From: Halobacteriovorax marinus | GTDB lineage: Bacteria; Bdellovibrionota; Bacteriovoracia; Bacteriovoracales; Bacteriovoracaceae | Direction: 5' to 3' | Length of the DNA: 64,000 nucleotides | Assembly (NCBI GenBank): GCA_002163155.1 | Contig: MAAO01000004.1 | Coordinates: 372,001 to 436,000, forward strand | Shown: positions 45,757-64,000 of the stretch, one piece after another | Layout: every line of letters starts with the position of its first letter | Position numbering within the stretch: position 1 is the first letter of the stretch | The notes under the pieces: model-generated | Told to the model about the DNA's origin: nothing | Database searches by the model: none | What the model saw: only the letters and a program-made list of their open reading frames with translations | Translations under genes and position numbers: made by a program

Positions 45757-46332
45757 TTATTTTGCAGGTATTCCCATAACCATTTTACCATCTGCAACAT
45801 CTGTTACAACAACTGCTCCTGCTGCAATTAAACAATTTTTCCCAATTTTTATATTTTGTATAATTCGTGCCCCCATTCCAATAAATGAGCCTTCGCCAAT
45901 CGAGACACTTCCCGAAATAACTGCACCAGGAGCAATATGAACATGTGAACCAATCATACAATCATGGTCTACAATTGCTCCTGTATTAATAAGTACGTTT
46001 TCACCAATCACTACTCCTCGTTGAATAATAGCTCCAGCAAAAAATTGAACACCTTCCCCAAACTGAACTTCTCTAGAAACTATCGCACTTGGATGTATTA
46101 AATTTTTAAAGAAATATCCAGCATTCTTGTACTTAGAAAAAATTTTCTTCCTAAGTACAGTATTTCGAACTCCGCCAACACCATTAATCACAGAGGTATT
46201 TTTTTTAAACTCTTTTATGAGCAATTCATCGTTCTCAACCTTACCCTGAACATTATCTCCATTCAAAAGAACTATGTCCTCGACTACCTTTGAATGTCCT
46301 CCAGCTCCTAAAATATATAAATATTCAATCAT
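45757..46332 (-). CDS. legH: PglD-like sugar N-acetyltransferase (LegH-type)
   Basis: A 191-residue protein: an N-terminal Rossmann-like domain (YILGAGGHSKVVED) and a C-terminal left-handed beta-helix of hexapeptide repeats (about 85-185). The catalytic His of PglD is matched by VDHDC (His about 123), with GSHVHIAPGAV after it. It acetylates the C4 amino group of a GDP- or UDP-4-amino-4,6-dideoxy-GlcNAc, the step after LegC. It overlaps legI by four bases and precedes ptmE by 20. Confidence 0.87.
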   Translation of the reverse strand: MIEYLYILGAGGHSKVVEDIVLLNGDNVQGKVENDELLIKEFKKNTSVINGVGGVRNTVLRKKIFSKYKNAGYFFKNLIHPSAIVSREVQFGEGVQFFAGAIIQRGVVIGENVLINTGAIVDHDCMIGSHVHIAPGAVISGSVSIGEGSFIGMGARIIQNIKIGKNCLIAAGAVVVTDVADGKMVMGIPAK

Positions 46333-47405: not shown

Positions 47406-48564
47406 AATTCCTCTCAACATGATAAAATTTCTTTTTTAAACAGTTTTCTTTTAAAGGAAATTTTTTTAAAATTTCAATTATCAGCGAAGAACTATTTCCA
47501 TTGCCATAAGGAGTTTCAATTTTTGAGCAATCTAGATCCATCGCTATTTTTATATTATTCAATATATGATTTTTTAAAGGTGATGAATTTAATATAGATT
47601 TAGATTGCAATCTTCCGCCCTGTCGATCACCTATATTCACTGTCGCAACTCCCATACTAGGAGCCTCGTAAATCCCACTAGACGAATTGCCAAGAACAAG
47701 ATCCACTTTAGACATGACACTTAAGTATCTGAGCTGTCCCAACGAAAAATAAGCAAAAGAACTAGGATTTTTTTCAACAAACTCATCAATCATTTCACCA
47801 ATAAGCCTTCCTCCTGCATCAGAGTTAGACTTTGTAAATATAATCCCAAACTCGTCCCCTAACTCTTCAAGAGCATTTAACAACTCCTTAAAGTCTTCCT
47901 TATAAGAATTATTTTCTAATGTTACAGGGTGGTAGGTTACGAGAATGTTCTGTTTCTTAAAAGTGAGTTTTAAATCATTTTCAATTTTTTTTAATGAAAG
48001 AAGTTTAAGATTCTTTATATAATCAACTCCAGTACTTCCGACATTAAATACTCTTTCGGGCTCCTCTCCCAATTGAACAACTCTTTGTCTTGAAACTTCA
48101 TTTGAAGTGAAGTGTAAGTAAGACATTTTAGTCATGCCATGCCTAAAAGCTTCATCCTGGGCTCCTTCAGTAGTATCTCCACCAAACATGTGAGCGACAA
48201 CCTTATTACTGACAAATGCTGCCTGTGTAACTGCAAACATTTCATAGCGGTCCCCTAAGACCAGTACAATATCAGGACTGAGTTCATTAAAGGTATTTGA
48301 GAATCCTATAAGGGTATGACCCATTGATTTAATCACCGCAACATTAGAGTCACCAGACTCTATGATCTCTATCTTTTTATCAATTTTAAATCCATCACTC
48401 TCTATGAGTTTATATGTATGACCAAAGCTACCTGAGAGGTGAGTTCCTGTAACAATCAACTGTAACTCAAGATCTGGATCATCTTGAATCTTTTTCATTG
48501 GCCAATAAAGAAGTCCATAATCCGCTCGACTACTTGTAACAACACAAATTTTTCTTTTAATCAT
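47395..48564 (-). CDS. legG: Hydrolysing NDP-HexNAc 2-epimerase (NeuC/LegG-type)
   Basis: A 389-residue member of the hydrolysing 2-epimerase family: CVVTSSRADYGLLYWPM (the SRADYG signature of NeuC/LegG), VLVLGDRYEMFAVTQAA, HMFGGDTTEGAQDEAFRHGMTKMS, and GNSSSGIYEAPSMGV. It removes the nucleotide and inverts C2, giving 2,4-diacetamido-2,4,6-trideoxymannose for LegI. It directly follows legC (one-base overlap, TAATG), so the order legB-legC-legG-legI matches the reaction order. Confidence 0.9.
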   Translation of the reverse strand: MIKRKICVVTSSRADYGLLYWPMKKIQDDPDLELQLIVTGTHLSGSFGHTYKLIESDGFKIDKKIEIIESGDSNVAVIKSMGHTLIGFSNTFNELSPDIVLVLGDRYEMFAVTQAAFVSNKVVAHMFGGDTTEGAQDEAFRHGMTKMSYLHFTSNEVSRQRVVQLGEEPERVFNVGSTGVDYIKNLKLLSLKKIENDLKLTFKKQNILVTYHPVTLENNSYKEDFKELLNALEELGDEFGIIFTKSNSDAGGRLIGEMIDEFVEKNPSSFAYFSLGQLRYLSVMSKVDLVLGNSSSGIYEAPSMGVATVNIGDRQGGRLQSKSILNSSPLKNHILNNIKIAMDLDCSKIETPYGNGNSSSLIIEILKKFPLKENCLKKKFYHVERNYES

Positions 48565-49739
48565 TAAATTTCTCCAAGATAAGGACTACTTGGAATATTT
48601 ATAATTGCTTTTTCTAGATATTTAGCACAACTCAGATCCTCCATTTGAGGACAACTAACGTAAGGACTTAAACTTGAAATAAGCTTCCACGCTGGACGAG
48701 TCATTAAATTATCTGCGTTAGTTAGCTTTAAAATTTCATCCCTGATACCCAAGAAATCTTCTTTTAAGATTAAGGTATTCAACCAATAATTACTCTTTGT
48801 CCCTTCATTTTCATTGAAAAAGTAAACATAAGGATTATTTTCAAATGCTCTCTGATATAAGCTTGCAAGATTTCTTTTCTTCTCAATAAAACTAGGTAAG
48901 ACCTCTAACTGCGCACACCCTAATGCCGCATTTAAATTTGGTAATCTATAGTTAAAACCCACCTCATCGTGAATAAATTCCCACGGATGACTAACTTTAC
49001 TCGTTTTAGTGATATGCTTCAACCTATCAGCTAAGACTGAATCATTAGTTAAAATTGCACCTCCACCACCCGTTGTAATAATTTTATTGCCATTAAAGCT
49101 AAGAACTGCAAGCTCTCCAAAACATCCCGTATGTTTTCCCTCATAGTAACTTCCAAGAGACTCGGCGGCATCCTCAATGAGTTTAATATGAAATTCTTTG
49201 CAGACTTTCACTAACTCATTTATTTTTACAGGATGACCAAATGTATGCATCGCCATTAGAGCGCTAATTCTGCGTTTGGTTTTTTTATTATAACATTCGA
49301 AATTTTTAATCTCTGTATTATCTTTTAAATAGGCCCTTAACTTTTGAGGATCAACACCCATTGTTTCTTTTTCACTATCAACAAAGTGCGGAAAGGCGCC
49401 GCAATAACGAACAGAGTTTGCTGTTGCTACAAACGTAAAAGCTGGAACTAAAACTTCATCATTTTCCTTAACACCAAGAACTACCATTGCAGCATGTAGC
49501 CCAGCGGTTCCATTCACAACCGCAATTGCATGTTTTATTCCAGTAAATTTCTCAAGTCCTCTCTCAAAGTCCTCAACATAACTTCCTACTGATGAAACCC
49601 ATCCTGTATCTATGCAATCTTTTACGTAATCAAGCTCATTCGCCCTAAAGGATGGCTCATGTAAAGGCACGAAACCATCACGATTTCCCACAACACTTCT
49701 TATTATTTTTAATACCTCTTCGGCAGGATTTTTAGACAT
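48564..49739 (-). CDS. legC: PLP-dependent sugar aminotransferase (LegC-type)
   Basis: A 391-residue DegT/DnrJ/EryC1 aminotransferase. HAIAVVNGTAGLHAAMVVLGV, AHTFGHP-like loop, EDAAESLGS, and VLSFNGNKIITTGGGGAIL with the PLP lysine (NGNKIIT) are intact. The N-terminal FVPLHEPSFRANE and length match LegC rather than PseC or PglE. It adds the C4 amino group after LegB. It overlaps legB by eight bases and legG by one, consistent with coupled translation. Confidence 0.88.
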   Translation of the reverse strand: MSKNPAEEVLKIIRSVVGNRDGFVPLHEPSFRANELDYVKDCIDTGWVSSVGSYVEDFERGLEKFTGIKHAIAVVNGTAGLHAAMVVLGVKENDEVLVPAFTFVATANSVRYCGAFPHFVDSEKETMGVDPQKLRAYLKDNTEIKNFECYNKKTKRRISALMAMHTFGHPVKINELVKVCKEFHIKLIEDAAESLGSYYEGKHTGCFGELAVLSFNGNKIITTGGGGAILTNDSVLADRLKHITKTSKVSHPWEFIHDEVGFNYRLPNLNAALGCAQLEVLPSFIEKKRNLASLYQRAFENNPYVYFFNENEGTKSNYWLNTLILKEDFLGIRDEILKLTNADNLMTRPAWKLISSLSPYVSCPQMEDLSCAKYLEKAIINIPSSPYLGEI

Positions 49740-50727
49740 TGTAAATATCAGCCTTATATTTATTTAAATTTTCTAATCTACAAAACCATTCGACAGTCTC
49801 AAGAAGACCTCTCTTGAATCCATCTCTTCCGCCATATGAAGGCTCCCAACCAATTAATTCTTTTGCTTTTTTATTTTCAGCCCACAATCTATTTACTTCA
49901 CTTTTTTCAGGGCGCTTTCTTTGCTCATCAGATTCAATTATAATTTTCTTATTCATAACTTCCGAAATAATTTCAACAGTATCTCCAATAGAGACTTCAA
50001 AATTACTTCCAATATTTATAATTTCTCCATTCGATTTGTCAGAGTTCCCTACCGATATAAACCCATCAACTGTATCTTTCACAAAATTAAAATCTCTAGT
50101 AGGACTTAAGGAGCCTAACTTAATGGTACTCATGCCGCTCGCAATCTGAGTAATAACTGTTGGAATAATTGCCCTTGCTGACTGCCTTGGCCCATATGTA
50201 TTAAAAGGGCGAATAATAGATACGGGAGTGTCAAAAGAATTATAGAAGGACATTGCAATTTGATCTGCCCCTATTTTTGAAGCAGAATATGGAGACTGAC
50301 CCTGCAATGGATGCTCCTCCGTAATTGGGACGAATTGAGCTGTTCCATACACTTCACTTGTTGATGTGTGCACAACTTTACTTATTCCCAAGTCTCTTGC
50401 TGCCTGAACCACATTTAAAGTACCTTTAACATTTGTATCAATATAAGTGTCTGGTGAATGATATGAGTAGGGTATAGCAATTAAGGCCGCTAAATGATAA
50501 ACCATTTCACAATCTTTCATTGCTGACCTAACGCCATTCGGGTCTCTTATGTCACCCATAAATATTTCAAACTTTCCTTTTACATCTTCTGAGCAATGAT
50601 CTAGCCAACCCCATGTACCAAAGGAGTTATATAATACAAAAGCCCTTACCTCGTGTCCTTGCCTTACTAGCTCTTCCGTCAAATGTGATCCAATAAATCC
50701 ATCCGCTCCTGTAACCAATATTTTCAT
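49732..50727 (-). CDS. legB: NDP-GlcNAc 4,6-dehydratase (LegB-type)
   Basis: A 331-residue extended SDR: ILVTGADGFIGSHLTEELV, HLAALIAIPYSYHSPD, STSEVYGTAQ, the YSASKIGADQI Tyr-Lys pair, and RPFNTYGPRQSARA. The ADGFIGSHLTE and IPYSYHSP motifs are characteristic of LegB (GDP-GlcNAc or UDP-GlcNAc dehydratase of legionaminic acid synthesis). It is the first gene of the run and has a GGGGAG site. The 295-base region upstream holds a degenerate direct repeat and separates it from a divergent methyltransferase gene. Confidence 0.9.
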   Translation of the reverse strand: MKILVTGADGFIGSHLTEELVRQGHEVRAFVLYNSFGTWGWLDHCSEDVKGKFEIFMGDIRDPNGVRSAMKDCEMVYHLAALIAIPYSYHSPDTYIDTNVKGTLNVVQAARDLGISKVVHTSTSEVYGTAQFVPITEEHPLQGQSPYSASKIGADQIAMSFYNSFDTPVSIIRPFNTYGPRQSARAIIPTVITQIASGMSTIKLGSLSPTRDFNFVKDTVDGFISVGNSDKSNGEIINIGSNFEVSIGDTVEIISEVMNKKIIIESDEQRKRPEKSEVNRLWAENKKAKELIGWEPSYGGRDGFKRGLLETVEWFCRLENLNKYKADIYNV

Positions 50728-50845
50728 TCAAGGACTCCCCTTTTACTTTTCTCACTGTCATTATCCTGTTAACTAAATTCAGAAGAATTAGTGGATAAGA
50801 ATACATATATCTTGTACCAATTTGTTAAGCACTGAGCAAACAATT

Positions 50846-50940
50846 CTAAAAATGAGCGGTGCACAAGCCTTTCATTATAATTTCTCCAGAAAAAGCTAGA
50901 TTGACAGGATGCTAAAAGCGCAGCGCACCATCCTTTCATT
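50846..50940. repeat. Degenerate 30-base direct repeat in the divergent promoter region
   Basis: Two copies (about 50846-50876 and 50912-50940) share the order CTAAAA, AGCG or CAGC, GCAC and then CCTTTCATT. The right half is closest: GCACAAGCCTTTCATT versus GCACCATCCTTTCATT, 14 of 16 identical. A TATAAT sequence follows each copy (50876-50881 and 50946-50951). The pair lies between legB and a divergent methyltransferase gene and may be a regulator-binding or promoter duplication. No function is known. Confidence 0.5.
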
Positions 50941-51022
50941 CTTGCTATAATTGCGAAAAACCAATGTTCATGGTAGATTTTCTTGAATTTTTCAATAAAA
51001 AATATTACCGAGGGAGATTTTT

Positions 51023-51952
51023 GTGACAACAGAATCACACACAACACACGAATTAAAAACGAGAGAAATTTATCAAAAACAACATGAGCGTCTTGCAACA
51101 GACGACGCAGCAATTGCCCGAATCAAGGGAATTTATGATGATGAGACTTTTGGTGTTGATCCCACTTGGTACGAGGGTAAAGAAGCTCTAGACATTGGAT
51201 GTGGAAATGTTGGAGCCCTTATAGCAAAACTCACAGAGCTAAAGGTAAAAAAATCTTACGGTATTGATATTGCGACAGACTGGATGGACTCTTTGACAGC
51301 TTCTCTTGAGGGGCAAAATATTGGAAAAGAAAAATATGAGCTAAGCACCGGAAACCACCTTTCAATTCCTTTTGAAGATAATCGCTTCGACATGGTTTTT
51401 TCCAATGGAATCCTAATTCACCTACCGACATTAGAAGATATTAAAGCTGGTTTCAAAGAAGCCTCTCGAGTTTGCAAGAAAGACGGATACTTTTTTGCAT
51501 CATTCGGTCCTTGCCAGGGCTTAGTTCAAGGAGCGATCTTTCCAGCGATTAGAAAATATTATAGAGAAAATAAAGAATTTGCAGCTTTTATAGACAACAT
51601 CAATCCTGAAACAATTCATGAGTCTATCGACAAAATTACGAAAGACGCAAAGAAATTCGCTGACCAGGACTTCGACCAACAGTGGATGAAGTCTCTATTT
51701 GGCGTAGACTTTTGTGTCTTCCTTCAAAACTATATTCAGGCTCCATCATGGCTCTCTAATGAGTGTACTCCGGAATTTGTAGAAAAGATGTTTGAGGAAA
51801 ATGGATATAAAAACGTTAAGCGTTTAAGCCATTTCTGTAAAAGAACAGACGTAAGAAAGTATTTTGCACCTCTTCACTTTGACATGGAACATCCAATGTC
51901 TAAAGTTCTGTATGGTGAGGGTTACGTACAGTATGTAGGTCAAAAGATTTAA
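51023..51952 (+). CDS. Class I SAM-dependent methyltransferase
   Basis: A 309-residue methyltransferase with ALDIGCGNVGALIAKL (motif I), YGIDIATDW (motif II), FDMVFSNGILIHLP (motif IV) and KDGYFFASFGP. The N-terminal 50 residues and the C-terminal 130 residues are not typical of the core and may hold substrate-binding parts. Start is GTG at 51023 with GGGAG upstream. It is a single-gene unit ending at a strong terminator, between the leg operon and a PhyH-like gene. A role in methylating a glycan is likely from context only. Confidence 0.78.
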   Translation: MTTESHTTHELKTREIYQKQHERLATDDAAIARIKGIYDDETFGVDPTWYEGKEALDIGCGNVGALIAKLTELKVKKSYGIDIATDWMDSLTASLEGQNIGKEKYELSTGNHLSIPFEDNRFDMVFSNGILIHLPTLEDIKAGFKEASRVCKKDGYFFASFGPCQGLVQGAIFPAIRKYYRENKEFAAFIDNINPETIHESIDKITKDAKKFADQDFDQQWMKSLFGVDFCVFLQNYIQAPSWLSNECTPEFVEKMFEENGYKNVKRLSHFCKRTDVRKYFAPLHFDMEHPMSKVLYGEGYVQYVGQKI

Positions 51953-51964
51953 AACCATTTTAAT

Positions 51965-51995
51965 GATGCCTCTAAATTGAAGAGGCATCTTTTTT
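51965..51995 (+). terminator. Rho-independent terminator after the methyltransferase gene
   Basis: Perfect 9-base stem (GATGCCTCT with AGAGGCATC), 7-base loop, then six T. It starts 12 bases after the plus-strand stop. The gene on the other strand ends at 52029, so the hairpin also lies in the path of that convergent transcript, although the minus-strand tail is less T-rich. Confidence 0.9.
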
Positions 51996-52028
51996 ATCCT
52001 ATTTAGTTTTTACATCCTAATTGCGTCA

Positions 52029-52967
52029 TTAAGCGATGCTTCTTTTAAGTTTTTTAAAAAAATTATATAATATTTTCCCATAAAATATGGAACTTCTAAT
52101 AATTGAAATACTTAGAAACAATCGAATCCTATCTAAAATACTTACTCTACCAGTAAAATTTTCTATCTCCATGGAGTAAGGTATTTCAGGACAGCTTTGA
52201 GAACTTACAACCCTACAATCTCCATTTTTAAGATGTTCTAGATTATAGTTTGGATTGACCGCTTTCTCTAATTCAGTCCCATCATACTTTTCTAAAAACT
52301 CATCTGGCCATTTAACGTAAGGCTTTTCATATGAGAAAACTCCTCCTACAGGGAAAAATCCCATCAATATTACTTCATTGCAAAGCTCTGAATCATTTTT
52401 AAGTCTTCCGTGCCAAGTTCTATTCAAGAAAAAACAAATATCTCCAGTTTTAGCCTCTAATTTTGTAAATAAAAAGCTTAATACTTGAGTCAGTACTGCA
52501 GGGATAAGGATATTATATTTTTTAATTAATTTTTTCACTATGTGTGAACCCTTTAAAAAGACAGTTCCACCTTTTCCCGCAGGGTTCTCCGATAAAACAA
52601 TTGCCATGTTGAACTGCCCTGGTCCATCTTGATGGACATCGAGTCCGGGGTCTCCTGGGAATGACATTCTATACTCGATCTGCCATAATTTATATTCCTC
52701 ACCTAACACATCATTTAAAAGGGCCTTGATTTTTGGGTGAGATATGATTTTCTCTAAATATGGAATTGATTTTTCATTATGAATTGGTAATGCCCTAAAG
52801 CCTGAACTTCCATCCTTCTCGTGCAAGAAATCGTTGTGAGTCTGATCAAAGTTTGAAAGTGTTTCGACACAAACTCTCTTTAATTCTAGTTTTTCTTCAC
52901 TTGTTAAAAACTCTCCCCCTAGATTTGTAAAACCCATTTTTTTTATCTGTCTAAAAGAATTTGACAT
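52029..52967 (-). CDS. Phytanoyl-CoA dioxygenase (PhyH)-family oxygenase
   Basis: About 312 residues. An HxD...H iron-binding set is visible: DVHQDGPGQFN (His-x-Asp) and RTWHGRLKN (distal His) about 85 residues later, with GDICFF before the second, as in non-haem Fe(II)/2-oxoglutarate oxygenases of the PhyH family. YRMSFPGDPGLD is the usual strand before the first ligand. PhyH members in surface polysaccharide loci probably hydroxylate a sugar or lipid part. The exact substrate is unknown. The start is the second ATG (52965-52967), five bases from a GGGGAG site. It lies downstream of the FkbM gene on the same strand after a 140-base gap. Confidence 0.78.
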   Translation of the reverse strand: MSNSFRQIKKMGFTNLGGEFLTSEEKLELKRVCVETLSNFDQTHNDFLHEKDGSSGFRALPIHNEKSIPYLEKIISHPKIKALLNDVLGEEYKLWQIEYRMSFPGDPGLDVHQDGPGQFNMAIVLSENPAGKGGTVFLKGSHIVKKLIKKYNILIPAVLTQVLSFLFTKLEAKTGDICFFLNRTWHGRLKNDSELCNEVILMGFFPVGGVFSYEKPYVKWPDEFLEKYDGTELEKAVNPNYNLEHLKNGDCRVVSSQSCPEIPYSMEIENFTGRVSILDRIRLFLSISIIRSSIFYGKILYNFFKKLKRSIA

Positions 52968-53107
52968 CATTTCTCCCCTACTAAGTAAAATAAAACAAAT
53001 ATAAATACCTATAAAGAAATCCCTAAATTAAAAAGTAAAGGTAATATAGAAAATCTTTATCACTCTTTACAAGAATATCAATTAGATTCCTGCACAGGCT
53101 TACTAAA

Positions 53108-54148
53108 TCACTTTCGCAATTTGGACCAAACTCCTGACGTATGATAAAGAAATCGACCATTGACATTATTATAATCAGTACCCCATCCATATGTTTTTGT
53201 GTTGTACGAAAGCATGTCACCAAGGTGATGAAAAAGTTTTCCCAAAAAGTTCATAAACCTATTTTTGAAAAAAATCTTTTGCCATATGGGTCGACTACTT
53301 AAAGATTTAAGAGCTTGAGTTATAAATTCTATCTCAGATTTACTTAACGGAGTTTTAGGATGATGAACAAATTCAAGTGCAACATCGAAAAATCCATAAA
53401 GAGAGAGCATTGTAACTAATTTTATGAGTTGTTCTTTTATCTTGTCATTGGAATCAAACTCAAGAGAGTAAAATGATTCTATATTACGAAAATAGATAGC
53501 ATCTGCAAAAACAATTTGCCCTCTTCTCGAAAGTTCTTTAGACATACTAGTACGATTGGCCCAATAACGATTCAGATCATACAACTCGAATCCTTTTTCC
53601 ATTACGAAGGAATCTACATTTCTAAACAATGGCTGGTTTTCGTATATTTGAACAAACTCAACTTCAAGTTCTAGCCCTAGGACATTGTCCATTAAATCTT
53701 CTGCCCCCTTCAAAATGCTTAACTCAGCACCCTGAGTATCAATTTTAATAAAGTCAGGAGCTATTTTATTTTCGTTATAAACATTCTTCAGCGTAGTGCT
53801 TTCAAGTAAAATTTCCTTCTCTACATTCCAGTTCTCACTAAAAAAGAACTTCTCTATTATTTTTTTATTGGGTTTAAAAATAGAAGAACATCCTTCTTCT
53901 TTTGTAAGATAGAGCTTCTTTGTTTCAACTTTATCAGAAAGCATAAAAGGTAAATATGTAAGATTACTGTCGGAGTTTTTATCATTTAACTCTTTACAGG
54001 CCTCTTTATCTGCATCAAAACCATAATATTGAACCTTATTTGATAGCTGATCCCATGGCCTTTGAATTCCCCAACGACAACCAACATCAAATAAATTTAT
54101 ATTTAAGTTTGGAACTAAATTAATTATAGATTCTAAAGATTTTTTCAA
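53108..54148 (-). CDS. FkbM-family methyltransferase
   Basis: A 346-residue protein with a Rossmann methyltransferase core: INLFDVGCRWGIQ (motif I), YYGFDADKEACK, and the FkbM signature DFIKIDTQGAELSILKGAED followed by ELEVEFVQIYENQPLF. FkbM members O-methylate sugars or other hydroxyls. The start is TTG at 54146-54148 with GGGAG six bases upstream. The C-terminal third is extended and of unknown role. It is transcribed divergently from the TviC-like gene and probably with the PhyH-like gene. Confidence 0.85.
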   Translation of the reverse strand: MKKSLESIINLVPNLNINLFDVGCRWGIQRPWDQLSNKVQYYGFDADKEACKELNDKNSDSNLTYLPFMLSDKVETKKLYLTKEEGCSSIFKPNKKIIEKFFFSENWNVEKEILLESTTLKNVYNENKIAPDFIKIDTQGAELSILKGAEDLMDNVLGLELEVEFVQIYENQPLFRNVDSFVMEKGFELYDLNRYWANRTSMSKELSRRGQIVFADAIYFRNIESFYSLEFDSNDKIKEQLIKLVTMLSLYGFFDVALEFVHHPKTPLSKSEIEFITQALKSLSSRPIWQKIFFKNRFMNFLGKLFHHLGDMLSYNTKTYGWGTDYNNVNGRFLYHTSGVWSKLRK

Positions 54149-54403
54149 TTATTTCTCCCTAAATTTAGAAATTGAATAATTTTCTATAAAAGTTATATTA
54201 TTCTACGACTGAACAATATCATTCAATTTTAACAATATTGTCATTCCTACTTTCTTTCGTATAGTCGAATGTTGGACATAACGCAGCACCAAATACCCAT
54301 ATCAAAAACAAGAAGCGCCCCGCTAGTACACAAGAAGCCCACTATAGCTTTCTTAACCATTTCTTGATAGGTTCTTTCTGCAACAATTAAAGGGTACTTC
54401 ACA

Positions 54404-55420
54404 ATGAGATTTGATGAGTTAAAAGAGCAGATGTTTTCCACACCTGAGACCTGGCTACTTACTGGCTGCGCTGGATTCATTGGCTCCAACCTTTTACAAT
54501 TTCTCCTACTCCATAACCAAAAAGTTATAGGTTTAGATAATTTCTCTACAGGAAAAATCTCCAATTTAGAAGAAGTTAAAAATTATGTTTCCATTGGTCA
54601 ATGGGAGAATTTCAATCTTATTAAAGGTGACATTAGAAGCGAAGAAACTTGTAAATTGGCCCTCAAGGGAGTTGATCGAGTTCTACACCAAGCAGCATTA
54701 GGATCGGTCCCCCGATCACTAAAAGACCCACTCACTACAAATCAGGTGAATATAACTGGTTTTTTAAATATGCTAAACTCCTCAAAAGATCAGCAAGTTA
54801 AAAGTTTTGTTTATGCTGCATCAAGCTCGACTTATGGGGACCATCCAGGTCTTCCAAAAATTGAAGATAAAATTGGGAAACCCCTGTCCCCTTATGCTGT
54901 TACAAAATTTGTTAACGAAATTTATGCAGATGTTTATCAAAAATCTTATGGCTTTAGTGCTACGGGACTTCGCTATTTCAATGTTTTTGGAAGTAGACAG
55001 GATCCAGATGGTGCCTATGCTGCAGTCATTCCAAAATGGGTATCAGCAATCATAGGTGGTGAAGATATCTTCATAAATGGGGACGGTGAAACCAGCAGAG
55101 ATTTTTGTTATATAGAAAATGTCGTACAGGCCAATATTCTTGCTTCATTTGCCTCAGAAGATGCAAAAGGAGAAGTTTATAATGTAGCCCTTGGAGACAG
55201 AACAACTCTCAACCAGCTCTTCCAAATGCTTACTGAAATTCTCAAGAAACATAATGTAGGATACCCAAAAGATATTATTTTTAGAGATTTTCGAGCTGGA
55301 GATGTAAAACATTCTCAAGCAGATATTTCAAAAGCTAAAAATCTACTCGGCTACTCACCTTTATTTAAAATCAAAGAAGGTCTTGAGCAAAGCATGGAAT
55401 GGTACTTAAACAATGACTAA
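54404..55420 (+). CDS. tviC: UDP-GlcNAc/GlcNAcA C4-epimerase, TviC/WbpP-like
   Basis: A 338-residue extended [76 protein letters not shown], and [23 protein letters not shown]. The AALGSVPRS block is typical of the TviC/WbpP group that interconverts UDP-GlcNAc(A) and UDP-GalNAc(A), as in Vi antigen synthesis. It overlaps the following tviB-like gene by eight bases. It starts a six-gene plus-strand operon. The 255-base upstream region shows no other gene I can support. Confidence 0.88.
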
Positions 55421-56666
55421 AATAGCAATTATAGGCTTAGGCTACGTAGGACTTCCTCTAGCAATCGAATTTTCAAAAAAATTTGAGACTTACGGTTTCG
55501 ACATTTATGAAAAACGAATTAACCAACTTAAAGATGGACTCGATAGTACTTTTGAAATTGATGAAGAAACTTTAAAGAGTACAGAGTTAACATTATCTAA
55601 CTCTCCTCAGGACATTAAAGACTGCAATATTTATATTGTTACTGTCCCTACTCCAATTGATGACTTTAAAAAACCCGACCTAAGTCCATTAATATCTGCT
55701 ACAAAACTAGTAGGTGGCCTCTTAAAAAAAGGTGATATTGTTATCTACGAATCAACTGTCTACCCAGGTTGTACCGAGGAAGATTGTGTACCAGTCTTAG
55801 AATTGGAAAGTGGTCTAGAATTCAATAAAGACTTTTCTTGTGGTTACTCTCCTGAGCGAATGAATCCGGGAGACAAAGAACATACTGTAACAAAAATTAT
55901 AAAAGTAACTTCAGGCTCAAATGAAGAGACTGCCCAAAAGGTTGATAAACTTTACAAAAGTATCGTTACAGCAGGTACTCACTTAGCTTCTTCAATCAGA
56001 GTTGCTGAAGCTTCTAAAATCATTGAAAACACTCAAAGAGATATTAATATCGCCTTCATAAACGAATTAGCGATGATTTTTAATAAAATGGAGATTGATA
56101 CTTTAGAAGTGCTGGAAGCTGCAGCAACAAAGTGGAACTTTCTTCATTTTAAACCTGGTCTCGTTGGAGGTCACTGTATCGGCGTTGATCCTTATTACCT
56201 CACTCAAAAGGCGGAATCAATTGGTCTACATCCTGAAATGATTTTATCAGGACGTAGAATAAATGACTCAATGGGAAGTTATATTGCCCAGCAAGCAGTT
56301 AAAAAGATGCTCAAGAAAGGGTTACCTGTCTCAGGTGCCAAAATAGTCATCATGGGTGTTACCTTCAAGGAGAACTGCCCAGATATTCGAAATTCAAAAG
56401 TTATTGATATAATAGCCGAATTACAAGAATTCAATTGCAATGTAACTATATGTGACCCTTGGGTTAGCGAAAAAATTGTGAGCTCGAAGATTAAAAATGT
56501 AAATTACCTCAAAATAGATGAGCTCAGTGACTTTGACGCGGTCATTTTCGCTGTGGGACACAAAGAGTTCCTTTCACTTGATCCAAAAAAGCTAACAAAT
56601 TCAAGCGGAATAGTTTATGATGTCAAAGGTATTTTCCCTCGGGAAATGTCTGATATTAGGTTATAA
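55413..56666 (+). CDS. tviB: UDP-N-acetyl-hexosamine 6-dehydrogenase (TviB/WbpO-like)
   Basis: A 417-residue nucleotide-sugar dehydrogenase: [19 protein letters not shown] (NAD loop), [46 protein letters not shown], and the active-site [15 protein letters not shown] with the catalytic Cys. It oxidizes UDP-HexNAc at C6 to the uronic acid in two NAD-linked steps. With the TviC-like epimerase it would yield UDP-GalNAcA, as in Salmonella Vi antigen. It starts inside the end of tviC and is followed after 53 bases by the fusion gene. Confidence 0.9.
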
Positions 56667-56719
56667 AAAGGCTTTTTTTGAGCCATGGAAATATATTTTC
56701 AATTCTAAAAGGATGAGAG

Positions 56720-58453
56720 ATGAGCAATAAAAAGTATAAGATTCTTGCTGTAATACAGGCCCGTGGTGGTTCAAAAGGTATTCCAAAAAAGAACATTTAC
56801 CCTTTAAACGGTCACCCTCTTATGACTTACACTATTGCAGCTGCTCTAAAATCTGAGCTCGTTACTGATCTATATGTATCATCAGACAGTGAAGAGATTG
56901 CACAAGTTGGACGAAACTACGGAGCTAAAGCCCCTTTCTTAAGACCCGACCACCTAGCTGGAGATAAAGTAACATCTGTAGACTCTCTCCACTGGGCATG
57001 TGATGAAATTGAAAAAATTAATGACACTGTTTATGATTACGTTGTCGAACTTCCAGCCGTTTCCCCTCTAAGAACTCATATTGATATTGATCAAGCTCTT
57101 CAAAAACTTATCGACACAAAAGCTGACTCTATTATCTCCATGGCAGATACTGGTGAGAAGCACCCTATTAGACTCAAAAGAATCATAGATGATCAAATTT
57201 TAAATTTCACAGAAGAATATCCTGAACCCGCTGCAGGTTCAAGACGACAAGACTTAAAACCAATTTCTTATATTAGAAATGGTGCGATCTATGCAATGAC
57301 TAGAGACTGCCTAGTTAAAGAACACAGTAGACATGGGAAAGACAGTCGTCCTTTCATTATGTCACCTGAAAGATCAGTAAATATTGATGAAACTATGGAT
57401 CTACTCATTGCAGAGGCCATGATGAAAAATGGTTTCTGTGACAACCTCCCAATAAAACTCCAAACAAGCACTATAAACAAAGTGCACAACGATAAAGAAA
57501 ACACTCTTCTAGTAACAACAAACACTTCTTTTTTACCAACAATTTGTTCACAAATTGAAAAAGAATTTAATGTTATCTATGCCGAAAATGCAACGATTGA
57601 AGAAGTTACAAAGCTTCTCCCAGAAGTAGATGGTTGGATTTGCAGTCCTTGCCCTAAGTATCAGATAAACGAAGAGCTACTTTCAAATGCAAAAAATCTT
57701 AAGATATTAGCGAGCCCAAGCACAGGCTCTAATCATGTTGATAAATCATATTGTGAAAAAAATGATATTTCATTCTTTTGCTTAAAAGGAACTGATTTTG
57801 TCTCTTCAATCACTGCCTCTTCAGAATTTACTTTTGCACTTGTACTAGAAGCAACTAGGAAAATTGGAAAATCTACCCAACTAGCAGAACAAGGCTACTG
57901 GAGAGAAATTGAAAATGATCTACGCGGAATTGAACTTGCGGGAAAAACTCTTGGAATAATTGGCTACGGACGTATAGGTTCAAATAATGCACGATTTGCC
58001 AACGCATTCAAAATGAACGTTATATCTTTTGATCCAAATGTAGAAATAAAAGAAGATTATGTAACTCAAGCTAAGTCTCATACAGAAGTATTAGAGAGTG
58101 CAGATATTGTAATGACATGTGTCCACCTAGATGACTCTACAAGAGAAATGGTTGATGCCTCTTGGTTCTCAAAAATGAAAGATGGAGTTTACTATATAAA
58201 CTCCTCTAGAGGTGAAGTTGTTAATGAGAAAGACCTACTTGAAGCCTTAGAGTCTGGAAAAATTAAATCAGCTGCAGTAGATGTTATCTCAAATGAAATG
58301 ACTTCTATAAAAAAAGAACATGCAATGATTAAGTATGCTGCTAAACACGACAATCTCTCAATTACACCACACATCGCAGGCTTAACAGTGGACTCAGAAA
58401 GAAAGGCTGCTGAAATAACACTTAATGCGGTTACTAAAGCGTTGAATAAATAG
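56720..58453 (+). CDS. Fused CMP-sugar cytidylyltransferase and D-2-hydroxyacid dehydrogenase
   Basis: A 577-residue two-domain protein. Residues about 1-235 are NeuA-like (AVIQARGGSKGIPKKN, LYVSSDSEEIA, RNGAIYAMTRD, VNIDETMDLLIAE). After a short linker, residues about 255-577 are a D-isomer-specific 2-hydroxyacid dehydrogenase: ILASPSTGSNHVD, GIIGYGRIGSNNA (NAD loop, about 412), NSSRGEVVNEKDLLEAL (catalytic Arg about 496), a Glu about 525, and SITPHIAGLT (catalytic His about 550). All three catalytic positions look present. I see no stop or frameshift, so it is a real fusion. It implies that a 2-keto or 2-hydroxy acid step is tied to CMP activation. Its own ribosome site (AAGGATGAGAG) is good. 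Confidence 0.88.
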   Translation: MSNKKYKILAVIQARGGSKGIPKKNIYPLNGHPLMTYTIAAALKSELVTDLYVSSDSEEIAQVGRNYGAKAPFLRPDHLAGDKVTSVDSLHWACDEIEKINDTVYDYVVELPAVSPLRTHIDIDQALQKLIDTKADSIISMADTGEKHPIRLKRIIDDQILNFTEEYPEPAAGSRRQDLKPISYIRNGAIYAMTRDCLVKEHSRHGKDSRPFIMSPERSVNIDETMDLLIAEAMMKNGFCDNLPIKLQTSTINKVHNDKENTLLVTTNTSFLPTICSQIEKEFNVIYAENATIEEVTKLLPEVDGWICSPCPKYQINEELLSNAKNLKILASPSTGSNHVDKSYCEKNDISFFCLKGTDFVSSITASSEFTFALVLEATRKIGKSTQLAEQGYWREIENDLRGIELAGKTLGIIGYGRIGSNNARFANAFKMNVISFDPNVEIKEDYVTQAKSHTEVLESADIVMTCVHLDDSTREMVDASWFSKMKDGVYYINSSRGEVVNEKDLLEALESGKIKSAAVDVISNEMTSIKKEHAMIKYAAKHDNLSITPHIAGLTVDSERKAAEITLNAVTKALNK

Positions 58454-58460
58454 GAAGAGA

Positions 58461-59135
58461 ATGGAAACTGATCTTGAATATATACCAGACATTTCAGTAA
58501 TAGTTTGCAGCTATAATCATGCGAAGTGGATCGAAAGGTGCCTTAGAAGCATCACTCATCAAATCCACATCAATAAGAGTGATTATGAAATCATCCTTGT
58601 TGATGATGGAAGTGAAGATGATACTTGCGAAGTTCTCAGTAACATTGAAGATATTAAAAACCTAAGAATTATTCAAAACAAACAAAATTTAGGACTTCCA
58701 AAGTCTCTAAACCTAGCAATCAGAAAAGCAAGGGGACGCTATATCATCAGAGTTGACTCTGATGATTATATTGCAAGAGAGACTCTGTATTTTATGAAAT
58801 TTTTCATGGATAAAAACCGTCACTATCAAGCGGTTGCCTGTGATTATCAATTCGTTTCATCTGAAGAGATTCCAGGGGAAAGAAAAGACGCCATGAAAGA
58901 AGAGATAGCCTGTGGAATTATGTACAGAAAAGAATGTCTTTTCGACATTGGATTATACAGTGAAGAGTTCAGAATGCGCGAAGGTCACGAACTAAGAACT
59001 CGTTTCCTAAGTAAGTACACTATGGCACACCTACCTATTCCATTTTACAAATATAGAGATCATGAAAATAATAGGACCAAAAACTTAGAAGAAGTCTCAA
59101 AATTTGATGAAAAATTAAACAATCAAGGAAAGTAA
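58461..59135 (+). CDS. GT2 family glycosyltransferase (short)
   Basis: A 224-residue GT2 protein: [51 protein letters not shown] (metal-binding DxD), and a [12 protein letters not shown] segment in place of the ED base motif. It lacks the C-terminal helices often found in this family. It sits seven bases after the fusion gene and one base before the short neuB-like gene, so it probably transfers the sugar the two make, but GT2 enzymes seldom use CMP donors, so this is open. Confidence 0.84.
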
Positions 59136-59136
59136 T

Positions 59137-59823
59137 ATGATTTTTATCGCAGAAATTGGAATGAACCACAACGGCAACTTTGGACTAATTTACGAATTAG
59201 TAAAGCAAGCTAAGCATGCAGGTGCTGACATTGCTAAATTTCAACTTGGTTGGAGAGACAAAGAGGGCGAGATAAATTGTATTACTCCTGAAATTATTGA
59301 ATTAATAAATAAATGCTGCGATCACTTAGAAATAGAACCTATGTTTTCTATTATAAGTGAATCTGCATGGGAAACTGCAAAGAATATAGACTTTAAAAGA
59401 TGGAAGATAGCCTCAAGAACAGTTAAGGAAAACCCTGACTACGTTAGGGAAATTATTAATACCGGAAAAGAAACTATAATTTCGCTTGGAATGTGGGAAA
59501 GCAATGAATTGCCATATGGCACACCCGAAAATGTAAAATACCTGTGGTGTAAGTCTGCGTACCCAGCTCTTCCATGGGATCTAACAGATCTTCCAAAAGA
59601 CTTTAGTAACTCTCCTTATGCTGGCTATAGTGACCATTCAGTAGGAATTGAAGTCCCACTCTTAGCAATTTCAAGAGGTGCAAAAATTATTGAAAAGCAT
59701 TTCACCTTAGATAAGTCTGATACAACGATTAGAGATCATGCTTTATCAGCCACCCCTGACGAATTCTTAGAAATGGTTAAGATTGGGCGTGCAATGGAAA
59801 AAGCCCTTAATCTTGGGATATGA
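59137..59823 (+). CDS. Short NeuB-like acid-sugar synthase lacking the SAF domain
   Basis: A 228-residue NeuB-type TIM barrel: [36 protein letters not shown] (about 163-170) and [10 protein letters not shown] with a following RDHALS. Complete NeuB/LegI proteins are about 335-360 residues with a C-terminal SAF domain. Here that domain is absent and several barrel loops are shorter, and the usual HCTT-type His strand reads [10 protein letters not shown]. It may still catalyse an aldol-type condensation with phosphoenolpyruvate but on another substrate. It has an AAGGA site, sits one base after the GT2 gene, and is followed nine bases later by the ABC exporter gene. Confidence 0.82.
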
Positions 59824-59832
59824 GCCTAGAAA

Positions 59833-61536
59833 TTGAAAAGTATAAAATCTTTTACTTATGAAATAACTACAATACTTTTAGCTTTAAATATTAAAACTAA
59901 ACGTATTGTAGCAACTCTCATTCCTTATTATTTTTTCGCAATCCTAAATGCTTCTTTTGAGGCTGTTGGAATTGTCTTATTAATAAACGTATTTACCGGA
60001 AATACAGAATCTAGCCAAAAGAGTCTTCTAATTGATCACCTCAATAGTCTTCTTCAAAGACTTGGGATCGGGAACTCTCTAGAAGAAATGCTTCCTATCT
60101 TAATTGGAATTTACGTTATAAATTTTTCACTTCGATTTTCTACCACCTTTTTTGATGGATATTTAAACTCTAAGATTAGAGAAAAATTGCAAACTGCTAT
60201 TTTTTCTAAATTCATTACAAGTAAATGGGAAGCTTCAAGAGACTTAAGAATTGGTGAGTCAGTTGGAACTAATACTACAGAGGCTGCTTGTGTCGTCAAA
60301 ATACTTACCTCTATAATAGTAACTTTATATTTCCTATTCGGAGCAATCTCCACTTTATCCTTAGCTACCTACACAAGTCCTCAGACAACAATTATGCTGA
60401 TATCAGTCGGCTTTCCATTATTTATTTGTTTAAAATATCTCATTAAAATCCAGGCTGGCTTTTCAAAAAAACTGACAATTAATCGAAACAAGTTCTCAGC
60501 TGACATCACAGATAGACTTAATGGACTCTTACAAATTCATGCAGACAAAGACTATTCGTACCATCTAAGGAAAGGTTTAAGAACACAAAGTACTATAACT
60601 ACAAATGAAATTAAAATTAGTGCTACACAGGCAATTATTGGGTCGTTTAGTATATTAATGCCCTTATGTATCCTAAGTTCCCTCTACGCTATTGTACTTT
60701 TCCTTGGAAAAGAATCATTACCTCAACTTTCAACCCTAGCAAGTGTTGGGGTACTAGCAATGAGAAGCTCAACTTTAATAAATGCAGCAATTGGAAACTT
60801 TGGGAATATATCTCGCCTATCGGGAAGCATTTCTCCTATTGTCAATTCCCTACGCCTGCCGCAGTCAAATAAAAAAGAGAAAGTTATCGATAAGATTAAG
60901 TCTATCTCACTTGATAACATTTCGTTTTCATTTGGAAGCAAAACGATATTAAAAAACTTAAACTTAACTATAAAAAAAGGGCATCCACTTATCCTAGGAG
61001 GAAGGTCCGGAAAAGGTAAAACGACATTGGCAAATATTATAGCTGGTCTCTACGAACCACAGTCTGGTGACATCAATTACTACACAATAAACACTCAAAA
61101 ATATTCTTCTACTCAGTATTCTTTAAATATTGGCTATGTTACTCAAGACATCTATCTCTTTGAAGGTGATGTAAAATCAAACTTAACTATGGGTAAAGAT
61201 ATTTCAGATGAAGAAATCAAGTCAAAATTACAGCTAGTAGACGCTTTAGACTTTGTAAATGAAGCTGGAGGACTAGAAGCTGAAATGAAGGAAGCCGGAA
61301 AATCTCTTTCAGGAGGACAAAAAAGAAGACTTGGAATAGCGAGAGTTCTTTTAACAAATTGCCAAGTTTTGATTTTTGACGAGGTAACTGCAGGGCTTGA
61401 TCAAAAAAACAAAAATGTTGTTCTAGATTTAATTAAACAAATTTGTGAAGATTACGCAGTCGTTATTATTTCTCACGATGAGATATCGTTGCCTAATCAA
61501 AACTATTTTAATGTCGAAAATTACTCTACTTCCTAA
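59833..61536 (+). CDS. ABC exporter, PglK/MsbA-like half transporter
   Basis: A 567-residue half-transporter: an N-terminal membrane domain of about six helices (about 20-320) and a nucleotide-binding domain with Walker A GGRSGKGKTT (about 389-398), signature LSGGQKRR (about 490), Walker B VLIFDEVTAGLD (about 512-523) and a His switch IISHDE. Short half-transporters at the end of glycan operons flip lipid-linked oligosaccharides (PglK) or lipid A (MsbA). Here the former is likelier. The start is a TTG at 59833 with only a weak upstream site. It overlaps the convergent DUF4910 gene by 11 bases. Confidence 0.84.
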   Translation: MKSIKSFTYEITTILLALNIKTKRIVATLIPYYFFAILNASFEAVGIVLLINVFTGNTESSQKSLLIDHLNSLLQRLGIGNSLEEMLPILIGIYVINFSLRFSTTFFDGYLNSKIREKLQTAIFSKFITSKWEASRDLRIGESVGTNTTEAACVVKILTSIIVTLYFLFGAISTLSLATYTSPQTTIMLISVGFPLFICLKYLIKIQAGFSKKLTINRNKFSADITDRLNGLLQIHADKDYSYHLRKGLRTQSTITTNEIKISATQAIIGSFSILMPLCILSSLYAIVLFLGKESLPQLSTLASVGVLAMRSSTLINAAIGNFGNISRLSGSISPIVNSLRLPQSNKKEKVIDKIKSISLDNISFSFGSKTILKNLNLTIKKGHPLILGGRSGKGKTTLANIIAGLYEPQSGDINYYTINTQKYSSTQYSLNIGYVTQDIYLFEGDVKSNLTMGKDISDEEIKSKLQLVDALDFVNEAGGLEAEMKEAGKSLSGGQKRRLGIARVLLTNCQVLIFDEVTAGLDQKNKNVVLDLIKQICEDYAVVIISHDEISLPNQNYFNVENYSTS

Positions 61537-62812
61537 AAACTTCTATTAAAGATTTTTCTTCCAGTCTCTTAAGAATATCAATAAGACTCCATGCCGGAAC
61601 TTTAAGTTTCTCAGCAATCTCTAAAAGGCTTCTCTTACCATTCGAATAAGCTAAAAAATTCCAAATAAGCTTTGTTTCAATCGACTTCTTTTGAGCTCCC
61701 ATGGATGGGTATAAGCCATACTTACTTAACTGAAACTCACATTTTGTTTTTGCTCTTGGATAAAGATTATTTTCTAAAATGATAATACAATGCTTAAATA
61801 GCTCATAACTTTCCTCAAGACCTTTCGCCGAAATAAAGTCAAGATCATCTTTAGAAGTATGATATTCGGGGTAATTTTTATACTTTGAGCGCATTATTGA
61901 GGCCATAGGAATATCAACTCCTGGGCTACAAAATTGCCTCTCATCACTTCCACGCTCCAAAAAGCTATACTCTGTATAAGAAGGTGCAAGGTTCTTTAAA
62001 ACGTGTCTTGCAACATTATCAGGCAAGCTATCTTCTTCTATTGAGGGTAAAAAAGAATAGGCTCTTACGTCTCCAACACAGTTCACATTAAAAGCAGCAA
62101 TTGTGTTCTTCTGGAGATCTTCAAGATTCTTTGAAATATAACAAATAGAGCCAATCGTTTCTGGAATAAAAATAAATCGGTAACTATAATGTCTCTTTGG
62201 TAAGTTAGTAATCCAACTCGCTAAAGCCGTTGCGACAGAAGGACCAGAACATTCATTATTTCCCATAGAAGGGTGGCAAACATAAGTAGAGAACAGTACT
62301 TCTTCAGAAGATTCACCCTGAATAAATAATTCTCCGTAATTAAGAACACCATTCTCTAACTTACTATCGATAACGACCTTATAAGAGCCTTCTTTTAAAT
62401 TCTCTAAAACGTTGTGAGATAAACAAAATCCCCATGTTTCTTTGTAATAAGATGTTACGTAAGGAATGGCGTCAGGCAGATCTGGTAAAGAATATAAATG
62501 TTTTTTTAATTCCTCAAGACTTAATTCCACATCCATGGGAATAGAATAACTTACAATATGGAGGTTATTATCCTTAAGGTTTGCAATCTTATTTCCATCA
62601 GGACCAATAATAAAGGCATCATTAATAGACCATTCCTTTGGAATATTCCAATCAAAACACTTTGTCCCTGTGGCGACTTCTTCAATTTTCAATTTTGGAA
62701 GATATTCTTGTAAAATAGCTAAAGTTTCTCTAACTCCTGGACCTGTTATGCTTCTACAGATTCCAAACAGCCTTTCAGCTAATGAATATATTTCTTTTCC
62801 ATTTAAACTCAT
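61526..62812 (-). CDS. DUF4910 (M28-like) protein with C-terminal winged helix
   Basis: A 428-residue protein matching DUF4910: an aminopeptidase-like alpha/beta domain (about 1-350) with likely metal ligands His180 (YVCHPSMGNNECSG), Glu218 (IPETIGS) and His318 (YPEYHTSKDD), plus ERGSDERQF (about 287-294), then a winged-helix tail (about 360-428, with LLEIAEKLKVP). Members recur in polysaccharide loci and have no assigned function that I can apply. An amide or ester hydrolase acting on a sugar is one guess. It is transcribed alone, opposite the ABC exporter. Confidence 0.78.
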   Translation of the reverse strand: MSLNGKEIYSLAERLFGICRSITGPGVRETLAILQEYLPKLKIEEVATGTKCFDWNIPKEWSINDAFIIGPDGNKIANLKDNNLHIVSYSIPMDVELSLEELKKHLYSLPDLPDAIPYVTSYYKETWGFCLSHNVLENLKEGSYKVVIDSKLENGVLNYGELFIQGESSEEVLFSTYVCHPSMGNNECSGPSVATALASWITNLPKRHYSYRFIFIPETIGSICYISKNLEDLQKNTIAAFNVNCVGDVRAYSFLPSIEEDSLPDNVARHVLKNLAPSYTEYSFLERGSDERQFCSPGVDIPMASIMRSKYKNYPEYHTSKDDLDFISAKGLEESYELFKHCIIILENNLYPRAKTKCEFQLSKYGLYPSMGAQKKSIETKLIWNFLAYSNGKRSLLEIAEKLKVPAWSLIDILKRLEEKSLIEVFRK

Positions 62813-62926
62813 AATTTATGTTACTAATATATTCCTTAAAATTACAGTTAAATCTCGTGTCTCATTTTCATCTTGTAACCCACCAAAGTACTTATCAATT
62901 AACTTAAGTTGTATTAATATGTTTAA

Positions 62927-64000
62927 ATGGATGAATCATACCAAACTCTCGTAGCTGATACTGCATTTATTGAACCTAAACAAGTTGAAGAATATAATTT
63001 CATTAATGTTTTTCCAATGAAAAAAGGAGATGAAGCCTATAGGGCCTCTCTTGACGAAATACTTTACAGGTCTAAGCTTCAATCAAAATTTTACAAGAAA
63101 GTCGAACCAAAGTTATTAAAGATATTTACAAAGCTTAACCCTTATCCTGCTAAGCAAAACTTTAATTTCGTACACTTTACTCTTGTAACACTAACAACAT
63201 TTTTTTGCGATAGAACCTTGAGAGTCATTGAAAGAACAAATCAAACTTCAAAAGAAAAACTTAGATATTTAAAAATCAAGGAAATAGATACCATAGAATT
63301 TGTAAGTGGTTATACACAATCATGGAAGTTTAACCAAAATCTTGTGATGAGAATATCTTCATCTTTAGGAATTAAACCTATTACATCAAAGAATGACTTC
63401 GTCTTACCAGAAAATCCTTCACTACATATTCAAAAAAATCTATTATTTTTACCAAGCAGTAATAAAGTTACTCAATATATTTATAGAATAATAAATAAGA
63501 TCTTTTCATTTATTCAAACTAAAATGAGTTCTCACAATAAAATTCAACCAATGGGCCTACATGATAGCTACCATTTCACCCAGAAAGGATTTTATGGGCT
63601 ATTTGGATTTTTTAAAAATCCTATAAAATTGAAATTCACACATAAAATAAAAGATTTTAAACTTAGAAATTTATTAAAAAAGGAAATCTCTGAACATTGC
63701 TTTGAAGAATTTAGAGAAATTTTAACTCAGAATTCTCCAGAACTTGATAAAATCTCTTTAGATAATCTGACAAAGGAATTCATTAATCTTTTTGTTGACT
63801 GGTTTCCGACTTCATTACTAGAGGCCTCAGAAAATAATATAAAAGAAGCCTTATCATCAATATCTTCGAAAAAAATCAAGGCTGTAATAGGAAATGACTC
63901 ATATTCGGACCAAGGCATGTTCATAAGCGTAGCGGCTCAAAGATTAGGAAAACCTTCAATTGGAATACAACATGGAGGGCATGTTGGTTACATTGAAGAC
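62927..64000 (+). CDS. Surface carbohydrate transferase-like protein, distantly LIC12162-like (partial)
   Basis: The reading frame is open from an ATG at 62927 (directly after an in-frame TAA) to the right edge, 358 codons, so the 3' end lies outside. No membrane helix. An N-terminal region (about 75-105, FNFVHFTLVTLTTFFCDRTL) and a late IGIQHGGHVGYIED end mirror the order of the LIC12162-type protein at 38.4 kb (GHWLNRY...NRY, then GQHGSNYG), so the two are probably remote relatives. The ribosome site is weak. It lies downstream of the second acid-sugar module, as its relative lies downstream of the leg operon, so a role as transferase is plausible. Confidence 0.6.
   Translation, partial: MDESYQTLVADTAFIEPKQVEEYNFINVFPMKKGDEAYRASLDEILYRSKLQSKFYKKVEPKLLKIFTKLNPYPAKQNFNFVHFTLVTLTTFFCDRTLRVIERTNQTSKEKLRYLKIKEIDTIEFVSGYTQSWKFNQNLVMRISSSLGIKPITSKNDFVLPENPSLHIQKNLLFLPSSNKVTQYIYRIINKIFSFIQTKMSSHNKIQPMGLHDSYHFTQKGFYGLFGFFKNPIKLKFTHKIKDFKLRNLLKKEISEHCFEEFREILTQNSPELDKISLDNLTKEFINLFVDWFPTSLLEASENNIKEALSSISSKKIKAVIGNDSYSDQGMFISVAAQRLGKPSIGIQHGGHVGYIED

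Follow-up and report, generated by a model that had tools for sequence, protein, structure and literature searches.

A CMP-transferase/2-hydroxyacid dehydrogenase fusion and a SAF-less NeuB in Halobacteriovorax marinus: candidate core of an acidic-sugar pathway

The window, the whole 64,000-nucleotide stretch analysed here, comes from contig MAAO01000004.1 of Halobacteriovorax marinus. Near its right end lie three genes on one strand, separated by intergenic gaps of 7 and 1 bp: a fusion of a NeuA-like cytidine monophosphate (CMP) transferase to a D-2-hydroxyacid dehydrogenase (DH), a family-2 glycosyltransferase (GT2), and an unusually short NeuB. The same combination, fused or as separate genes, was found in SAR11-family bacteria, in uncultured phages and in other bacteria, and we think it fairly probable that the three genes form the core of a dedicated pathway that would make, and activate with CMP, an acidic sugar other than neuraminic (Neu), legionaminic (Leg) or pseudaminic (Pse) acid. 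The parts of the core are as follows.

56720..57439, + strand: NeuA-like CMP-transferase domain, about residues 1-240 of the 577-amino-acid (aa) fusion; motifs ARGGSKGIPKKN, KHPIR, SRRQDL and NID
57440..58453, + strand: DH domain, about residues 241-577 including the linker; NAD motif GYGRIG, catalytic R497/E526/H551
58461..59135, + strand: short GT2, 224 aa, with a VDSDD motif (PF00535, 1.6e-29)
59137..59823, + strand: SAF-less NeuB, 228 aa, condensing enzyme with a predicted TIM barrel (PF03102, fold search and residue mapping)

Domains and conserved residues

Fusion gene. A preliminary description of this DNA had reported a NeuA-like domain joined to a complete D-2-hydroxyacid dehydrogenase. 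The open reading frame (ORF) call agrees, giving a single uninterrupted frame of 577 aa at 56720-58453 (+) that encodes both. Pfam finds CTP_transf_3 (PF02348) at residues 10-142 (70.5 bits against a cut-off of 22.6; 2.3e-19), 2-Hacid_dh (PF00389) at residues 279-575 (3.8e-9, in a split match that is normal for the family) and 2-Hacid_dh_C (PF02826) at residues 372-553 (1.3e-48). In the PDB the NeuA-like domain matches the CMP-Neu5Ac synthetases 6ifd and 1eyr, and the best match of the DH domain is 2ekl. With PseF and NeuA synthetases the first domain shares the ARGGSKG motif, present at its N-terminus, and the cytidylyltransferase profile; it differs in scoring 133.8 bits with the PseF equivalog model, under the 205.7 cut-off, in having N-I-D for D-I-D, and in its attached DH. 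On these grounds it would carry out CTP-dependent transfer of CMP to an ulosonic acid. An AlphaFold model of the whole fusion, built from six sequences, is of moderate confidence (mean pLDDT 72, pTM 0.45) and was not used in our arguments.

Dehydrogenase. The catalytic triad R497, E526 and H551 and the NAD motif are invariant across all six known fusions, and the triad Arg, Glu and His is invariant in all aligned members of the module, fused or not. The DH shares both domains, GxGxxG, the triad and the NAD-type Asp after the second Rossmann strand with dehydrogenases of the SerA, GhrB and VanH types, and differs from them in forming its own clade, in a PSTG-x-x-H motif, in lacking the SerA-loop arginines and in having NeuB and NeuA neighbours. 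It scores 166 bits with the SerA equivalog, under the cut-off of 454. According to the alignments with 2ekl and the family, CSPCP/VNPGT and PSTG replace the SerA loops RSxT and RAG with their arginines, which makes 3-phosphoglycerate an improbable substrate. In the DH tree the six fusions form one clade (support 99/97), and the module DHs, represented by 46 dereplicated rows, fall nearly all in one supported clade (98/94), with 98/81 for the grouping that has loci L010 and L148 as long branches at its base (L-numbers denote loci and G-numbers genomes of this analysis). SerA-like DHs lie outside the module clade, and one divergent second DH copy, from L236, falls elsewhere. With its separate clade and the loss of the substrate-loop arginines, a SerA-type identity was ruled out.

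Short NeuB. ORFs and Pfam also bear out the 228-residue NeuB-like synthase without a SAF domain and the GT2 that precedes it: PF03102 is matched at 117.8 bits (cut-off 22.1), and no SAF domain is found. The protein aligns over its full length to Neisseria NeuB (NmNeuB), with E6, K34, Q36, K90, S116, Y142, S165, H167, E186 and H188 aligning to active-site residues and conserved. Equivalents of Glu25, Gln55, Lys129, Tyr186, Ser213, His215, Glu234 and His236 are invariant in all 27 short NeuBs, and so are the Lys and Ser matching Lys53 and Ser154. Lys53, Ser154 and His236, which we take to belong to the active site, are our additions to the NmNeuB list, as are the metal-binding roles of its residues. 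No phosphoenolpyruvate (PEP) or metal residue, whose loss would have undone the earlier proposal, is missing from the alignment, and a dead NeuB was ruled out because these residues are retained.

Apart from those three additions the active-site list is that of PMC6795526, where Arg314 of the SAF domain is described as essential in Neisseria NeuB. The 228-aa protein stops right after the barrel, so that both the SAF domain and its Arg314 are absent. C2 specificity has been tied to a position at which Neu and Leg synthases have Gly and Pse synthases Phe, and C4-C6 specificity to a substrate loop (PMC7371886). The C2 position (Gly133) is Arg (R94) in most short NeuBs including the window's, the neighbouring Glu134 position is Thr in the window's protein, and the C4-C6 loop is strongly shortened in the short NeuBs of the window, L050, L051 and L052. 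The presence of R94, the short loop and the missing Arg314 all concern sites to which PMC7371886 and PMC6795526 assign sugar specificity. The AlphaFold model is a confident barrel (pLDDT 93.3), for which a fold search returned as closest 6ncs, a 285-residue NeuB chain of Leptospira borgpetersenii (TM-score 0.84), and NmNeuB 1xuu at 0.82. The short NeuB shares the TIM barrel and the PEP and metal residues with the NeuB/SpsE/PseI family; beyond its length, its missing SAF/Arg314, the Gly133 to Arg and Glu134 to Thr changes and the shortened loop, it differs in scoring below the NCBIfam equivalog cut-offs (N-acetylneuraminate synthase TIGR03569, 131.6 against 399.65 bits; PseI TIGR03586, 96.1 against 340.25 bits). 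It is one lineage within a wider SAF-less NeuB family.

Occurrence in bacteria and phages

Fusions. A genome scan with an alignment of short NeuBs led to SAR11 (Pelagibacteraceae) loci whose short NeuBs are 55-59% identical. L051 and L052 have the order fusion, GT2, short NeuB as in the window, with 4-bp overlaps, and L054 contains a third SAR11 fusion. Searching 297 genomes of the SAR11 family yielded a further two besides that in the genome of L051, namely L233, with the same order, and L234. There are therefore six fusions in total, the window's and five from the SAR11 family. This settles a test posed earlier, that the fusion might be unique to one genome; six related fusions in one supported clade, together with many unfused operons, rule out an assembly or annotation artefact. 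The window's GT2 is 55-58% identical to its counterparts in L051, L052 and L233, and the window's fusion is 49.8% identical to that of L233, a closeness that points to horizontal transfer of the fusion between lineages. Plasmid or cultured-phage origin was considered and found no match: no plasmid or INPHARED record covered 80% of the fusion, and at 1e-10 the short NeuB had no match in cultured phages.

Of 291 genomes from the phylum to which the window belongs, none but its source genome carries the fusion. G146 has NeuA and DH as neighbouring separate genes, and in G063 (L226) a DH gene lies beside a short NeuB. With one fusion genome of 291 and these two others, the module is rare and patchy in this phylum. 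Also in this phylum, G038 has a long-NeuB cousin of the module (L010:456-3182), with adjacent genes for NeuA, a 2-hydroxyacid dehydrogenase and a NeuB-family protein of 346 aa.

Separate genes. The single fusion protein, used as query in a viral scan, gave no match. With a four-row fusion alignment the scan led to marine phage contigs (L133-L146) where separate genes, consecutive or near one another, encode short NeuB, NeuA, DH and GT2, the ends of NeuA and DH overlapping in many. Overall, about 20 lineages of uncultured phages, and other bacteria as well, have separate genes for a SAF-less NeuB, NeuA and DH, mostly with a GT2; among these bacteria L225, L235 and L236 have the order NeuB-GT2-NeuA-DH (the GT2 of L225 assigned by eye). 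The separate-gene operon is the commoner arrangement and the fusion the rarer. Phage status rests on IMG/VR assignment together with proteins of L281 and L283 that by eye resemble T4-type tail sheath and tube, and elsewhere on PHROG matches, some of them weak.

In a viral scan with the DH alone, a SAF-less NeuB (≤300 aa) lies within five genes of the DH in 45 of 48 loci, not all of them new since contigs are shared with the earlier viral scan. There are three exceptions: in L265 the NeuB has 331 aa, in L242 the piece begins with the DH gene, and in L284 the match was confined to a short fragment. Dereplication at 90% identity left the association of DH and NeuB unchanged. SerA-type control DHs have no NeuB nearby, a weak control as their stretches are only about 3.8 kb. 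Among loci L050-L129 a module-type DH occurs only in L051, L052 and L054.

In several phage loci a GT29 (sialyltransferase-family) protein is encoded within about 1.6 kb of the DH. GT29-like phage proteins over the Pfam cut-off near the module are those at L135:7586-8218 and L259:6428-7204. An HMGL-like aldolase gene, a potential alternative source of 2-keto-3-deoxy acids, adjoins the fusion of L234, and a phage gene (L253:11005-12759) about 3 kb from the DH/short-NeuB module joins an HMGL-like aldolase to a cytidylyltransferase. The HpcH/HpaI aldolases of L142 and L144, some 6 kb away from the DH, are a weaker link.

Candidate pathway and alternatives

In the pathway that we favour, the short NeuB, given its fold and its PEP and metal residues, would condense PEP with an aldehyde sugar to a 3-deoxy-2-keto acid, and the NeuA domain, given its family and motifs, would couple that acid to CMP. 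The DH would perform NAD-dependent redox at a carbon adjoining a carboxylate of a pathway intermediate, before or together with CMP activation, and its fusion to NeuA may hand the intermediate on directly. The product is most likely a CMP-activated, non-standard 3-deoxy-2-ulosonic acid. The GT2 and/or a transferase of the LIC12162 type, or in some phages of the GT29 type, might then place the sugar on a surface glycan for which the ABC transporter would be the exporter; in phages the sugar could perhaps be added to the virion. Transferase and final glycan are presumptive assignments. The acid-sugar reading draws on the protein families, the GT29 proteins near the DH, and the HMGL-like and HpcH/HpaI aldolases; these neighbours fit a three-carbon addition followed by CMP activation as a general scheme, not one particular sugar. 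The earlier proposal of a separate acid-sugar pathway with a dehydrogenase tied to CMP activation is upheld in its genetic part, where fusion and conserved order couple DH and activation and unfused operons agree, while the reaction of the DH itself is deduced from its family. A limited literature search found no description of the DH-NeuA-NeuB combination.

Several points weigh against this interpretation. Plain reduction of the NeuB product at C2 ahead of activation cannot be the role of the DH, because the anomeric centre would be destroyed and no usual CMP-glycoside could form; we therefore favour redox beside a different carboxylate, or earlier in the pathway. The metal motif of the NeuA domain is N221-I-D223, not D-x-D, in six of six fusions, and we know of no GT2 that uses CMP donors. 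Nor is every part of the module universal: the CTP-transferase of G063 is SpsF-like, not NeuA-type, the thresholds used bring out no NeuA gene in the phage group L267-L283, and in L234 a long NeuB takes the place of the short one.

Bacterial nonulosonic acids can bear hydroxyacyl groups, and the chemistry of the DH family is conversion of a 2-keto acid to a D-2-hydroxy acid. The DH might accordingly make a small D-2-hydroxy acid, such as D-lactate or D-glycerate, for use as an acyl or ether substituent, with NeuB and NeuA making an ordinary nonulosonic acid. We regard this as unlikely, since no acyltransferase or acid-activating enzyme is a constant neighbour of the module, 3-phosphoglycerate is disfavoured by the replacement of both SerA loop arginines, and the fusion to NeuA would be left unexplained. 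The short NeuB might instead use a plain or phosphorylated aldose with PEP, as for KDN or Kdo, the DH being an accessory for secondary tailoring. It lacks Arg314 of the SAF domain for N-acetyl binding, the core is without epimerase or aminotransferase, and one phage group has an HAD-phosphatase/NTP-transferase fusion close to NeuB; KDO8P synthase, of the same fold, is likewise without a SAF domain (PMC6795526). This too seems improbable, as none of the eight proteins tested with Pfam around the window's cassette is an HAD phosphatase, and in the DH scan almost all loci have a NeuB near the DH, which thus seems not secondary there.

That the cassette is a degenerate or auxiliary copy of a Leg or Pse pathway, sharing precursors with complete sets nearby, deserves mention because both sets are in the same locus and could provide aldehydes. 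As stated in the preliminary description, the window holds a full legionaminic set with its own synthase and CMP-synthetase: LegB-like (49732-50727), an aminotransferase, NeuC-like, LegI (46329-47420) and NeuA (41371-42123), accompanied by a WbpG/PseA-like amidotransferase with HisH/HisF, all roles being assigned by eye. Just downstream of the window lies an apparently complete pseudaminic set (L130:8724-17517), with PseB, PseC, PseF, PseG, PseI, a PseA-like protein and HisH/HisF, also by eye. The fusion/short-NeuB system, earlier counted as the second acid-sugar pathway, is therefore the third NeuB/NeuA system of the locus. The copy explanation is very improbable: the SAR11 and phage modules are mostly without a complete Leg set in the stretches inspected, the catalytic residues are intact and conserved, and the substrate loop and C2-specificity position are unlike those of Leg and Pse synthases.

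Two known pathways come close to the dedicated pathway proposed above. In the Kdo8N pathway the KdnB dehydrogenase and the KdnA aminotransferase act with a CMP synthetase; a dehydrogenase there too tailors an acid sugar before CMP activation, whereas KdnB belongs to another dehydrogenase family and there is neither NeuB nor fusion. The Bacteroides KDN pathway shares a NeuB-type synthase acting on an unmodified sugar phosphate and a CMP synthetase, and differs in having an HAD phosphatase and no dehydrogenase.

A bolder extension of the dedicated pathway, possible though in our estimate rather doubtful, is that the module defines a new class of CMP-3-deoxy-ulosonic acids. The SAF-less NeuB would act on an aldehyde other than N-acetylated mannose, a dedicated 2-hydroxyacid DH would tailor the product, the system would have spread between marine bacteria and tailed phages for use on cell surfaces and possibly virions, and the GT2 would be the first user of a CMP-sugar in its family. 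If true, this would add to Neu, Leg, Pse, KDN and Kdo a further sialic-type branch with a minimal, testable enzyme set that uncultured marine phages also carry, and why phages encode synthesis of an acid sugar would become a question. The six fusions and conserved operons offer a handle, in the form of three small and probably soluble proteins, on a surface sugar of the SAR11 family.

Flanking genes and other short-NeuB cassettes

The genes on either side of the core are these.

54404..55420, + strand: TviC-like NAD-dependent sugar epimerase (NF011728, 467 bits, cut-off 760), overlapping the next gene by 8 bp
55413..56666, + strand: TviB-like nucleotide-sugar (UDP-GlcNAc 6-) dehydrogenase (NF011729, 538 bits, cut-off 592)
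59833..61536, + strand: ABC exporter, PglK/MsbA-like, 9 bp downstream of the short NeuB
61526..62812, - strand: DUF4910/DUF2172/HTH_47 protein (PF16254, 3.7e-100), a recurrent neighbour of short NeuBs
62927..64000, + strand, running on to about 64777: LIC12162-like transferase, a candidate glycosyltransferase of 616 aa (TIGR04331)

Judged from gene spacing, the TviC-like, TviB-like, fusion, GT2, short NeuB and ABC exporter genes probably form a six-gene operon. No dedicated dehydratase, aminotransferase or acetyltransferase of Leg/Pse type was found in 54404-62812. The earlier statement that no 2-epimerase, dehydratase or aminotransferase adjoins the core stands to that extent, but the TviC-like epimerase and TviB-like dehydrogenase lie immediately upstream on the same strand, and with them there a simpler starting aldehyde, as had been suggested, is not established. 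The TviB-like protein is 45-52% identical to counterparts in the SAR11 loci. UDP-GlcNAc dehydrogenase-like genes are frequent in O-antigen loci, so their presence beside the window and SAR11 fusions was not taken to indicate a substrate.

The fusions of L052, L233 and L234 are also near ABC-transporter-like genes, with limited similarity to the window's exporter. The full LIC12162-like protein scores 109 bits with TIGR04331 (cut-off 225), and a protein of that family is encoded directly upstream of the fusion in L051, L052 and L233. An Rfam scan of 50000-64000 gave no match. The DUF4910 family recurs beside short NeuBs in phages (L019-L028, L135, L136, L142 and L144) and in bacteria (L058 and L059); for a DUF4910-type protein, a role in modified sugar synthesis has been suggested (PMC4000134).

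Other short NeuBs have different company. In L054, L055, L056, L057 and L059 an asparagine-synthase-like gene is directly or closely upstream of the short NeuB, followed in L056, L057 and L059 by a GT2-type gene and an SpsF-like gene, the GT2 of L059 having a C-terminal CMP-transferase-like domain. These loci make up a second type of short-NeuB cassette, in which only L054, through its fusion, has a DH. At L050:1096-6222 the genes after the short NeuB encode a radical SAM/SPASM protein, a fusion of NeuB with a cytidylyltransferase, and a protein of GT2 type. In two phage loci, L020:9294-11001 and L023:9902-12678, PEP mutase and a split phosphonopyruvate decarboxylase stand beside a short NeuB and LicD-like genes, and the phosphonate cassette of L023 adds an iron alcohol dehydrogenase and a cytidylyltransferase-like gene.

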